From the NCBI RefSeq assembly GCF_016464305.1, contig NZ_JAEIOJ010000011.1:1-64000 (forward strand): DNA of 64,000 nt. Reading direction: 5' to 3'. Source of the DNA: Umezawaea beigongshangensis. GTDB taxonomy: Bacteria; Actinomycetota; Actinomycetes; Mycobacteriales; Pseudonocardiaceae. Every line of letters begins with the position of its first letter. The stretch's first letter is position 1. Shown here piece by piece: positions 36,757 to 40,580 of this stretch. A model generated the notes under the pieces. That model was not told where the DNA came from and searched no databases. It worked only from the letters and a program-made list of their open reading frames with translations. A program made the position numbers and the translations under genes.

Positions 36757-37467
36757 ATGGATCTGAGCACCGTCGCCGTCCCGCACACCCTCGCCCGCCT
36801 GACGCCGTTGCTGCCCCCGCCTCCGGCTCGTGTCCTCGAGGCGGGCTGCGGACGTGGCGCGCTGGCCGCGGCCCTGATCGACCTGGGTTACGAGGTCACC
36901 GGCGTGGACCGCGACGCCGAGGTGGCCGCGGCGGCCGAGGCGCGCGGCGTGCCGGTGGTCCGGGCCGACGTCCGCGACGTCTCCGGTGAGTACGACGTCG
37001 TGCTGTTCACCCGTTCCCTGCACCACGCCGAGGACCTGGACGGCATCCTGGGCCACGCCACCACGTTGCTCGCCGGGGGCGGGCAGATCGTGGTCGAGGA
37101 GTTCGCCTGGGAGCGGGTGGACCACGCAGCCGCCGACTTCCTGCACGACAGTCGTGCACTGCTGGTCGCGGCCGGTCTGCTCGACGCCGAGACTCCCTCC
37201 GGTGATCTGGTCGAGGCCTGGGCCGCCGACCACGCCTCGCTGCACCGGGGCTCCGCCATGCTCGCCGCGCTGGACCGGGCCGGTGCGGATCTGACCACGG
37301 TGCCCACGGCCGTGCTGTGGCGCTTGCTCGACGGCCGCGGCGGTGCCTGGACCGAACCGGCCACCCGCGTTCCGGACGTCCTCGACGCCCTGCGTCGAGC
37401 CGAGGAACGCCGCATCGCCGCCGGCACCCTGCCCCCGGTCGGTCTCCTCGCCTCCGTCCGCCGCTGA
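36757..37467 (+). CDS. Class I SAM-dependent methyltransferase
   Basis: 236 residues from ATG at 36757. Motif I VLEAGCGRGALAAALIDLGY, motif II VTGVDRDAEVAAAAEARG, motif IV YDVVLFTRSLHHAEDLDGIL, and a post-motif IVVEEFAWERVD segment: the UbiE/Methyltransf_11 type that acts on small molecules. Substrate unknown. A decayed MFS transporter gene follows on the same strand. Confidence 0.85.
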   Translation: MDLSTVAVPHTLARLTPLLPPPPARVLEAGCGRGALAAALIDLGYEVTGVDRDAEVAAAAEARGVPVVRADVRDVSGEYDVVLFTRSLHHAEDLDGILGHATTLLAGGGQIVVEEFAWERVDHAAADFLHDSRALLVAAGLLDAETPSGDLVEAWAADHASLHRGSAMLAALDRAGADLTTVPTAVLWRLLDGRGGAWTEPATRVPDVLDALRRAEERRIAAGTLPPVGLLASVRR

Positions 37468-37591
37468 CGCCGTCCTCGTTCGAGGCCGGGTCCGCACCGT
37501 GGGGGAGCGGTCGTCAGCCGTCCGGTCCGGCCGTCGGGCCCACCCCTCGCGGCGTGCTGCCGACGGGAGCTCGGGCACCTCGTCGCCGGGT

Positions 37592-37882
37592 GTGCTCAGC
37601 TCGCCCACGCTGCTCAGCCCGTACCTGCAGGACGTCCTGCACCGGAGCCCGCTGTCCACGGGTGTCGGCTTTCTCGCCGAGGGCGTCGCGGTGATGATCG
37701 CGGGCGGCTCGGCCGCGCGGCTCGTCGGCCGTCCGGGCACCCCGGCGGTCCTGATGACCGGCCTGGTGTCGCGGTGCTCGCCGCGGTGGTGGCGGTGGCC
37801 ACCGTCCCGGACACCGCGGCGCCGGAGGCCACCGCGGTCCGGCACGGAGAAGACGCCCGCCAGCACGGTCACCGCGTCCTGA
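37592..37882 (+). pseudogene. Remnant of an MFS (DHA2-type) transporter
   Basis: TLLSPYLQDVLHRSPLSTGV then FLAEGVAVMIAGGSAARLVG matches the mid-protein transmembrane segments of drug-exporting MFS proteins. The frame breaks near 37770, and the next frame gives VLAAVVAVATVPDTA, the last helix and C-terminal tail. The N-terminal half is absent. Internal deletion and frameshift make this non-functional. It marks the left edge of the lower-GC cassette that follows. Confidence 0.65.
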
Positions 37883-38063
37883 CCCCAGCGGCACGCCGTG
37901 GCGTCCACCGGTCGAGGTCGCCGACGAACGAGAGGAAGAGCACCGGGGCGGCCAGGAGCGTCACCCTCGGAGAGGACACGCGGCATATGATCAATATTCG
38001 GTGTTCGAGATCGACGGTTTCAGAACAAGTATCGCCTTCTTCACCAGATCGAGGGATTGAAAT

Positions 38064-38091
38064 ACAATCATCGCCGCCCTACGGTGATTGT
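38064..38091. promoter_or_regulatory. Inverted repeat upstream of the RiPP cassette
   Basis: ACAATCA (38064-38070) and TGATTGT (38085-38091) are exact complements 14 bases apart, 47-74 bases before the precursor start in an AT-richer promoter-like stretch. A regulator site or a leader-RNA hairpin are both possible. Confidence 0.45.
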
Positions 38092-38137: not shown

Positions 38138-38629
38138 ATGACTACACCTGGTGATGTCCAGTCAGTGCCCAAGATCTTGTTTCAGCAGTCCCTTCAGCTC
38201 AGCGAGCGCATTTCTGACGACTGGGCGCGCATGCGTTCACAGCTCGTCTCGGCAGCCCATCTCGAGGCTGCTCACGGTGTGATCGCCGCCGAGCTGCCAC
38301 TCGACATCCAGCTTGCCGAGGACGATGCTCGCCAACTCGTCGCTCTTTACAACCAGGCCGTCATCGACGGCCGGTACCTGAACAAGCTGACGGTGGAACC
38401 CGCCGAAGTGGCGCAGGCGCTCGGTGTGGAGATTTCAGCGGCCGCCGAGAACGGCCTCAAGCGCATCGGCGAACTCAACGCCGTCCGGGCCGCGAACGAA
38501 GAAGCGGCCGTGCCCTTCGTCGGCGTGGTCGCAGTGGTGGGCATCGTCGTCCTCGGAGTGGTCCTGGTCGTCGATCCGGCTGTCAGGTCCGAGGTCGTCG
38601 TCGACTCGAGTGGGATTGTGAAGCTCTAG
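38138..38629 (+). CDS. Candidate RiPP precursor peptide with valine-rich core
   Basis: 163 residues from ATG at 38138. Residues 1-124 are a soluble, helical leader-like region (ISDDWARMRSQLVSAA; ELPLDIQLAEDDARQLVALY; VEPAEVAQALGVEIS). Residues 125-163 are a hydrophobic tail with 17 valines among 39 residues (VPFVGVVAVVGIVVLGVVLV, then DPAVRSEVVVDSSGIVKL). The stop is four bases before a radical SAM RiPP-maturase gene of a kind whose B12-dependent relatives methylate unactivated carbons, and valine is a known substrate residue for such enzymes. The leader matches no family I recognise (not clearly NHLP or Nif11). It could instead be a small membrane protein. GC and codon use are visibly lower than in neighbours. 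The function is inferred from context. Confidence 0.55.
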   Translation: MTTPGDVQSVPKILFQQSLQLSERISDDWARMRSQLVSAAHLEAAHGVIAAELPLDIQLAEDDARQLVALYNQAVIDGRYLNKLTVEPAEVAQALGVEISAAAENGLKRIGELNAVRAANEEAAVPFVGVVAVVGIVVLGVVLVVDPAVRSEVVVDSSGIVKL

Positions 38630-38633
38630 CACC

Positions 38634-40580
38634 ATGACCGCCGACAGCGCACCGAGCCACGACGTCGCCCTCATCAGCATGCCGTGGGCGCCTGTGCACG
38701 AGCCCAGCCTGGGGCTGGCCATCCTGAAGTCCTGCCTGACGGAGGCGGGGATATCGGCGCGGGTGCACCACTTTGCGCCGGAACTCCTCCGCTGGGTGAC
38801 GTCGGACACCTATTCGCTCGTCGCTGATGCGTGGGGCTTGAACGAGTTCGTGTTCAGCGGCGAACTCGATCCGGTGCTCGGCCGGGATCAGCAGAGTGCC
38901 GTCATCAACCGGGTCGAGACGTACTGGCGGTTCGCCGACGGGAGGTGCGGCGCCGGGCGGTACACGCCGGCCTCGATGCTCGACCTGTTCATGACGATGC
39001 GCTACGACGTGGCGCCCAAGCTCCTGGACGTCGCCGCAGAGCGGGTTCTGGAGTCGTCGCCGAAGGTCGTCGGCTTCACGTGCCTGTTCGACCAGACCAT
39101 CGCGTCGCTGGCGCTCGCCTCCGTCCTGAAAGCGCGGGATCCCGGCCTGGTGATCGTGTTCGGTGGCTATGCCTTGGAAGGTCCACCGGGGATGGCCGTC
39201 GCGAAGTCGTTTCCGTGCGTGGACCTCGTCGTGGTCGGCGACGGTGAACGGGCAATCGTCGACATCGCACAACGAGTGCTCGAGGGCCGTCCTCTCCCGC
39301 ACGATCTGCTCGCCTCCGAACGGTCGGGCGAGCAGCGGACGATACGCGCCCCGCAGGTCGACATCAATCGAACGCCGACACCGGACTACGCTGATTGGTA
39401 CCGTGACACCGCCCAGCTCGAGAAGGAACATCTCGTCAGCGTCCGCACCGAGGTGCTCCCGGTGGAGAGCTCCCGCGGGTGCTGGTGGGGTCAGCGCAAG
39501 CACTGCGTGTTCTGCGGGATCGACGACGACGCGCTGAAGTACCGGTATCGCGATCCCGAATCGACCACGGCGATGCTCGACGCGATGCGCGAACAGTACG
39601 GCGACGTCACCTTCCGATTCTCCGATTACATCATGCCGAAGGCGTACTACACCGACCTGCTTCCTCAGCTGGCCGCACGCGAGGTGCCCTTCCGCCTCCA
39701 CACCGAGATCAAGGCGAACCATCCTCCGGAGCGTGTCGAACAGCTGGCCGCGGCAGGCTTCGTCGCGATACAGCCGGGGATAGAGTCCTTCTCGTCGACA
39801 GTGCTTCGCGCCATGGACAAGGGCGTGCGCGGAATCGACAACGTGTCCCTTCTCAAGGAGGGGTACCGACAACACCTGATGATCTACTACAATCTGCTGT
39901 ACGGCTTGCCGGACGACGTGGTCGACGATTACCGGCAGATGTGCACTCTGCTCCCCCGGCTCTACCACCTGATGCCTCCGGTTTCGCGTACCGAGGTCGT
40001 CGTCACTCGTTTCGCACCACTTCAAGCCGATCCCCAGCGCTTCGGCATCACCACCGAGGCTGTTCACCACGAGTGCTACGACGTACTGTTCTCCGGTGAC
40101 TTCCTGGCGCGAAGTGGATTGAAGTTGGACGACTACTGCTACTACTTCGCGCGAACATTCAGCTTCACCAGCGAACTGGCAACCGTCTACAATCAGCTCG
40201 TCCGGCAGGTCGACCACTGGAAGGCCCTCCACCGGTCCAGGTTCGTAGAGCTTTCTCTCGTGCCCACGGAGACCGGTGCGATCGTTCGCGATTCGCGGTT
40301 CGCACCGGTGCCGGAGGAGTTCGAGCTTTCCCGCGCGGCTGCCCACCTGCACAGCAGAGCTGACCGCCGCCCGGTGAGTCTGGCTCGAACGCTGGCGTCC
40401 GCGCGGTCCGACGGCGGGTTCTCCGCCTCGGAGCTCGACGACGCGGTGGCTCAACTGGACGAGCGCAGGCTTGTCTGGCGGGAGGGAGATCTGCTTCTCG
40501 GACTGGCGCTGCCGAAGGCCGTTGTGAACGCGCACCAGGACACAGCCTGGCCCAAGGGATGGCTGTCGAACTACGTCTAG
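38634..40580 (+). CDS. RiPP maturation radical SAM protein with B12-binding-type N-domain (rSAM_ocin_1-like)
   Basis: 648 residues from ATG at 38634. The N-terminal 230 residues form a cobalamin-binding-type domain (VALISMPWAPVHEPSLGLAI; VIVFGGYALEGPPGMAVAKS; VDLVVVGDGERAIVDIAQRV). The radical SAM centre has SSRGCWWGQRKHCVFCG with Cys 283, 291 and 294; C-x7-C-x2-C within RGCWWG is diagnostic of this RiPP family. HTEIKANHPPERV and FVAIQPGIESFSSTVLRAMD follow, as in B12-dependent radical SAM methylases. The C-terminal 200 residues are family-specific. It probably modifies the adjacent valine-rich peptide. No transporter, protease or second modification enzyme is nearby. Confidence 0.88.
   Translation: MTADSAPSHDVALISMPWAPVHEPSLGLAILKSCLTEAGISARVHHFAPELLRWVTSDTYSLVADAWGLNEFVFSGELDPVLGRDQQSAVINRVETYWRFADGRCGAGRYTPASMLDLFMTMRYDVAPKLLDVAAERVLESSPKVVGFTCLFDQTIASLALASVLKARDPGLVIVFGGYALEGPPGMAVAKSFPCVDLVVVGDGERAIVDIAQRVLEGRPLPHDLLASERSGEQRTIRAPQVDINRTPTPDYADWYRDTAQLEKEHLVSVRTEVLPVESSRGCWWGQRKHCVFCGIDDDALKYRYRDPESTTAMLDAMREQYGDVTFRFSDYIMPKAYYTDLLPQLAAREVPFRLHTEIKANHPPERVEQLAAAGFVAIQPGIESFSSTVLRAMDKGVRGIDNVSLLKEGYRQHLMIYYNLLYGLPDDVVDDYRQMCTLLPRLYHLMPPVSRTEVVVTRFAPLQADPQRFGITTEAVHHECYDVLFSGDFLARSGLKLDDYCYYFARTFSFTSELATVYNQLVRQVDHWKALHRSRFVELSLVPTETGAIVRDSRFAPVPEEFELSRAAAHLHSRADRRPVSLARTLASARSDGGFSASELDDAVAQLDERRLVWREGDLLLGLALPKAVVNAHQDTAWPKGWLSNYV

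Follow-up and report, generated by a model that had tools for sequence, protein, structure and literature searches.

Among the closest known systems to the locus analysed here are the polytheonamide and aeronamide proteusins, in which a precursor with a long NHLP-type leader and a valine-rich, hydrophobic core that becomes more polar at its C-terminal end is paired with a B12 radical SAM methyltransferase carrying a Cx7Cx2C motif (PoyA with PoyB/PoyC; PMC11285071, PMC5682303). Polytheonamide has a hydrophobic N terminus, and its hydrophobicity falls towards the C terminus (PMC11285071). The unusual Cx7Cx2C spacing has been reported for PoyC and for the bottromycin methyltransferases; methylation of the β-carbon of valine was shown for PoyC, and action on the β-carbon was proposed for the bottromycin enzymes (PMC11285071, PMC5682303). 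The bottromycin C-methyltransferases are also B12 radical SAM enzymes for which valine methylation has been reported, but their cluster encodes three such enzymes and yields an unrelated macrocyclic product (PMC5682303).

We analysed a stretch of 64,000 nucleotides from Umezawaea beigongshangensis (the window), which contains two genes in tandem on the + strand. P0001 (38138..38629, 163 amino acids) is a precursor-like gene, and P0002 (38634..40580, 648 amino acids) encodes a predicted B12-dependent radical SAM RiPP C-methyltransferase; 4 nt separate the stop codon of P0001 from the start of P0002. GC content at second codon positions was low in both genes (0.38 in P0001 and 0.44 in P0002, compared with 0.67–0.83 at other codon positions), which is the pattern of real coding sequence. 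The start codon of P0001 is uncertain, as its frame stays open upstream as far as a TTG at 38057. Its last 39 residues (VPFVGVVAVVGIVVLGVVLVVDPAVRSEVVVDSSGIVKL) contain 17 valines, compared with 10 in the remaining 124 residues, and in 496 non-overlapping ORFs (100 amino acids or longer) from the window and related loci the next-richest 39-residue stretch contains 14; the valine richness of the tail exceeds chance. Within the tail, a hydrophobic stretch (residues 127–145; 38516..38572, +), the proposed methylated core, precedes an 18-residue C-terminal segment (DPAVRSEVVVDSSGIVKL; 38573..38626, +). Length, valine-rich tail, intergenic gap and the cysteine motif of the enzyme are all exactly as the first-pass annotation of this DNA had given them.

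A weak candidate promoter found by consensus scan (TTCACC-17-TACAAT; 38040..38068, +) lies about 70 nt 5′ of the precursor start, and no intrinsic terminator was found at the cassette. The GC content of the cassette is 64.4% compared with 72.5% for the window, of which it is the lowest-GC 2.4-kb stretch; this fits acquisition from elsewhere, and the cassette may be foreign DNA. One flank carries a tyrosinase with a MelC1 cofactor and two SAM methyltransferases, the other a GAF-domain protein and an SNF2 helicase, and neither flank is related to the cassette. We saw no second radical SAM gene between the upstream methyltransferase genes and the downstream SNF2 helicase. The earlier remark that no protease or exporter is linked to the cassette was borne out; they are also absent directly beside related rhizobial cassettes, and a search of the whole assembly found 0 C39 peptidase domains. 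An ORF 5′ of the cassette (37343–37882, +) resembles, by eye, the remnant of a multi-pass transporter (LLSPYLQDVLHRSPLSTGVGFLAEGVAVMIAGG).

P0002 matched TIGR03975 (rSAM_ocin_1, 'RiPP maturation radical SAM C-methyltransferase') with 440.6 bits (cut-off, 281.85), its residues 11–626 spanning profile positions 1–606, in agreement with the family originally named for it. A cobalamin-binding domain was detected at residues 134–211 (39033..39266, +; PF02310, 33.4 bits, gathering score 32.1). PF04055 (Radical_SAM) exceeded its gathering score on residues 278–397, within which lies the [4Fe-4S]-binding motif C-x7-C-x2-C with its conserved cysteines C283, C291 and C294 (RGCWWGQRKHCVFC; 39480..39515, +). 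An AlphaFold2 model of P0002, built with 38 homologues in the alignment, had a mean pLDDT of 90.1, and its best PDB neighbours by Foldseek were the B12 radical SAM enzymes OxsB, TsrM, MgmA, TokK and CysS. Homology and the model both support the view that P0002 binds cobalamin, on which the original assignment depended. To our knowledge, few members of the large rSAM_ocin_1 family have a tested substrate.

A search of GTDB genome contigs with P0002 as a single-sequence query found nothing; the GTDB genome scan used family alignment A1 as its query. Among the matches listed, the enzymes closest to P0002 were encoded in a Bacteroidales MAG (L121; 36% identity over 640 amino acids, 482 bits) and a Rokuibacteriota MAG (L122; 45% identity over 510 amino acids, 413 bits), with L133 in the same list at 259 bits. 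In a phylogenetic tree the three enzymes formed one clade on a long stem with 100/100 support, and in a tree without L121 and L122, P0002 stood on a long, isolated branch. The L122 enzyme gene is frameshifted in the deposited contig, where its end continues in another frame (L122:7422-7847), through either a true frameshift or an assembly error. Directly upstream of both enzyme genes, at a distance of about 20 nt, lies a homologue of P0001, of 176 amino acids in L121 (L121:327-857) and 131 in L122 (L122:5577-5972). On the evidence of these sequences, the pairing of precursor and enzyme is conserved across three phyla, which strengthens the first reading of the locus as a RiPP-type pair; because the same gene pair recurs in two distant phyla, it has the look of a minor branch of modified-peptide biosynthesis that is so far undescribed.

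Homologues of the small gene were found only beside a P0002-type enzyme, and none without a radical SAM partner. The cassette is present as a single copy, and a precursor profile search of the two MAGs found no copies besides the one adjoining the enzyme. Searches with P0001 as a query gave no convincing match in plasmids, in 100 relatives or in 395 genomes of the class; the best stray matches, L003 and L056 (32% over 69 amino acids), scored at the level of chance for a search of so many genomes and do not lie beside the enzyme, and L056 was rejected. Subfamily searches of 95, 198 and 396 genomes related to the three hosts brought no further member, and viral contigs yielded 0. The subfamily has at least three known members, two of them MAG contigs. 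No PoyD-type epimerase was seen in L121 or beside L122. In the Bacteroidales MAG, an ORF for a 188-residue membrane-protein-like product (L121:2812-3378) overlaps the final part of the enzyme gene; it is a possible immunity or export partner, and no counterpart was seen in the window or in L122.

The leader regions of the three precursors are related: P0001 aligned to both homologues with scores reached in 0 of 2,000 shuffles, and the three have the motif [VIL][IL]DGR[YF][LI]......P..[VI]A..LG...S..A in common. In P0001 the motif region spans residues 66–113 (QLVALYNQAVIDGRYLNKLTVEPAEVAQALGVEISAAAENGLKRIGEL; 38333..38476, +). The Os1348-family model of the NHLP clan (NF038399) matched the L121 and L122 homologues at the right place with 19.3 and 14.1 bits, both below its curated cut-off of 40 bits, and P0001 itself was not listed among its matches. 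A bona fide NF038399 precursor (L133, 52.6 bits), which adjoins another rSAM_ocin_1 gene, reached P0001 as a query at an E value of 0.003. In hhalign, 12 Os1348-type leaders compared with the three precursors, both small alignments, gave a probability of 84% and a score of 33.6; the highest score among 100 column-shuffled controls was 21.4. A value of 98.7% was discarded as circular because the iterative profile already contained P0001. Neither P0001 nor its two homologues had a Nif11 match in NCBIfam or Pfam. The leader of P0001, which the first-pass annotation had called of no known type, is instead a probable remote member of the NHLP clan (Os1348/proteusin-like) that lies below curated cut-offs. 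The L121 leader seems to contain a second, earlier copy of the motif domain (L121:387-500), whose alignment to the single L122 domain reached a score seen in 0 of 2,000 shuffles; we did not adopt an internal duplication as a feature of the leader, as support was weak in L121 and absent in P0001.

We next consider what the tail may become. Val or Ile occupies 12, 13 and 12 positions of the 19-residue hydrophobic stretch in P0001, L121 and L122, respectively. Of the 149 distinct rSAM_ocin_1 genes gathered, none but the three is preceded by an ORF with ten or more such residues per 19. The hydrophobicity gradient of polytheonamide gives it a layout like that of the P0001 tail. In contrast to the polytheonamide and aeronamide systems, with whose PoyB and PoyC we compared P0002 by description rather than by sequence (as also with the bottromycin enzymes), the cassette has no linked epimerase, dehydratase or N-methyltransferase, its leader is related to NHLP leaders only remotely and its tail has no Asn. 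Rhizobial loci (L118, L119) similarly consist of a few genes, with precursors ending in Val runs (...AEAVVTVVVVVV) and an rSAM_ocin_1 enzyme, but they have Nif11 leaders and an extra PoyD-like epimerase, and their enzyme lies on a distant branch of the tree. Since valine-rich tails beside such enzymes are known from polytheonamide and occur in the rhizobial Nif11 loci, the cassette is best described as a proteusin-like precursor with a lone C-methyltransferase; the undescribed RiPP class suggested at first is too strong a claim, and the data fit a so far undescribed subfamily within the proteusin-like systems.

We propose, with a probability of roughly 0.6, that the locus is a minimal two-gene proteusin-like RiPP cassette in which P0001 is the precursor and P0002 β-methylates its Val/Ile residues. 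This reading builds on the two genes, their pairing in three phyla, the enzyme family, the cofactor domains and the remote leader relationship; the substrate (P0001), its modified part (the V/I stretch), the chemistry and the location and role of the product are our deductions. By analogy with PoyC, P0002 would bind the motif domain of P0001 (DGR[YF]...P..[VI]A..LG), and the core would be carried by the C-terminal part, made up of the roughly 20-residue V/I-rich stretch and the 18-residue polar end. As a methylcobalamin-dependent enzyme, P0002 would generate a 5′-deoxyadenosyl radical that abstracts hydrogen from the β-carbon of Val or Ile, the likely targets being those of residues 127–145, and transfer of the methyl group from methylcobalamin would give β-methyl-valine (tert-leucine) or β-methyl-isoleucine. 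Release and export would depend on enzymes encoded elsewhere. For P0002, the most likely chemistry is β-methylation of the Val/Ile stretch, and the product would probably be a very hydrophobic, membrane-associated peptide.

The hydrophobic stretches of the three precursors are alike in composition only, whereas the segments that follow them are of near-constant length (18, 18 and 20 amino acids), contain E-x-[IVS]-V-D and end with K-[LV], so that E, VD and K are common to three phyla. These last 18–20 residues are a separately conserved polar segment, which may serve as a follower or form the product's hydrophilic end. It is also conceivable, although rather unlikely, that P0001 is the substrate but that the modified residues lie in this segment, with the V/I stretch acting as a membrane anchor or export signal; many other rSAM_ocin_1 partners indeed end in short peptides with alternating V/I/S (SVEVSVSVSVGF, GITVTVPFRN, GVRISLK). 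The stretch could be an ordinary transmembrane anchor, but one so rich in β-branched residues (V/I) and poor in leucine would in our judgement be unusual, and PoyC, a characterised enzyme with the same cysteine motif, modifies Val/Ile in a hydrophobic core (PMC11285071).

We consider it improbable that P0001 is a membrane-anchored scaffold or regulator of the enzyme whose true substrate is encoded elsewhere. At 163 amino acids P0001 is long for a precursor, its C terminus resembles a single transmembrane segment and AlphaFold2 predicted only low-confidence helices from its single sequence (pLDDT 49.7). However, long leaders are typical of the NHLP clan, and the leader is the conserved part here; precursors in related loci also sit directly before the methyltransferase, and the three loci share no other conserved small ORF.

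The enzymes of the three loci deviate at 16 positions where the rSAM_ocin_1 family is at least 80% conserved, including L296I and N297D at otherwise invariant positions adjoining the cluster motif, and N332Y, W419Y, E428D and A502C. Owing to these departures, near the cluster and in the barrel, the substrate, chemistry or outcome may differ from those of the family. Another radical chemistry on Val/Ile, such as cyclopropylglycine formation (−2 Da) or methylene transfer, nevertheless seems decidedly improbable: TvgB, which converts the Val of TVGG repeats into cyclopropylglycine, comes from the SPASM-type subfamily of radical SAM enzymes (PMC9062424), but P0002 has a B12 domain and belongs to a methyltransferase family. 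The deviating GC content, the single copy and the failure to find close relatives within the host's taxonomic family might suggest decay or chance, with a V-rich ORF next to a radical SAM gene to which it is unrelated; this is refuted for practical purposes by the homologous pairs in three phyla, together with the open reading frames and the coding signal.

We did not find the clade of P0002, L121 and L122 described in the open-access literature, the scope of our search, subscription papers lying outside it. What appears new from sequence comparison is the combination of an NHLP-like leader, a V/I-rich stretch of transmembrane length, a conserved C-terminal motif and a lone methyltransferase in three phyla. 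More tentatively, and with less than even odds, we suggest a horizontally spread RiPP subfamily in which a lone B12 radical SAM enzyme repeatedly β-methylates an all-L, V/I-rich core of transmembrane length, giving two-gene poly-tert-leucine membrane peptides, with the conserved E-x-x-V-D...K-[LV] end required for recognition or release. The minimal cassette consists of two genes, offers a clear candidate for the substrate and is free of competing modifications, and could therefore be a clean study system. It could show by what means B12 radical SAM enzymes methylate the unactivated sp3 carbons in peptide Val/Ile, and in what way NHLP-like leaders direct these enzymes. Should the tail become tert-leucine-rich, the pair would offer a simple genetic route to membrane peptides so far known mainly from heavily modified, multi-enzyme proteusins.

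We found rSAM_ocin_1 in many other phyla; of 297 genomes from the host's taxonomic family 47 have it, as do 20 of 395 genomes from its class. Relatives of P0002 within its own taxonomic family and class are only 28–39% identical to it, and no P0001-like gene was seen at those of their loci that were read. Such actinobacterial loci (for example, L057, L062 and L103) likewise have a small precursor-like ORF directly upstream of the enzyme, but these precursors are short or repeat-bearing, are not V/I-rich and have no P0001-type leader. In L060, L062 and L077, from the same taxonomic family, the upstream precursor-like ORFs carry ALTVTxLAExDx repeats. Tiny conserved peptides (MQKDIIHNDPLAGDEENRKPSVGITVTVPFRN, MKKKTVHNSPHAIGGGTTGVRISK) precede rSAM_ocin_1 in Streptomyces-type loci (L103, L076, L098 and L111), and the same arrangement occurs in the host's taxonomic family (L070, L095, L086, L090 and L092); with their alternating V/I/T/S ends, they are apparently widespread precursor families. 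On a Sinorhizobium plasmid (L118:202-2479), four consecutive Nif11-type precursors, of which both that were translated end in Val runs, are followed by an epimerase and rSAM_ocin_1 and adjoin an IS5-like element.
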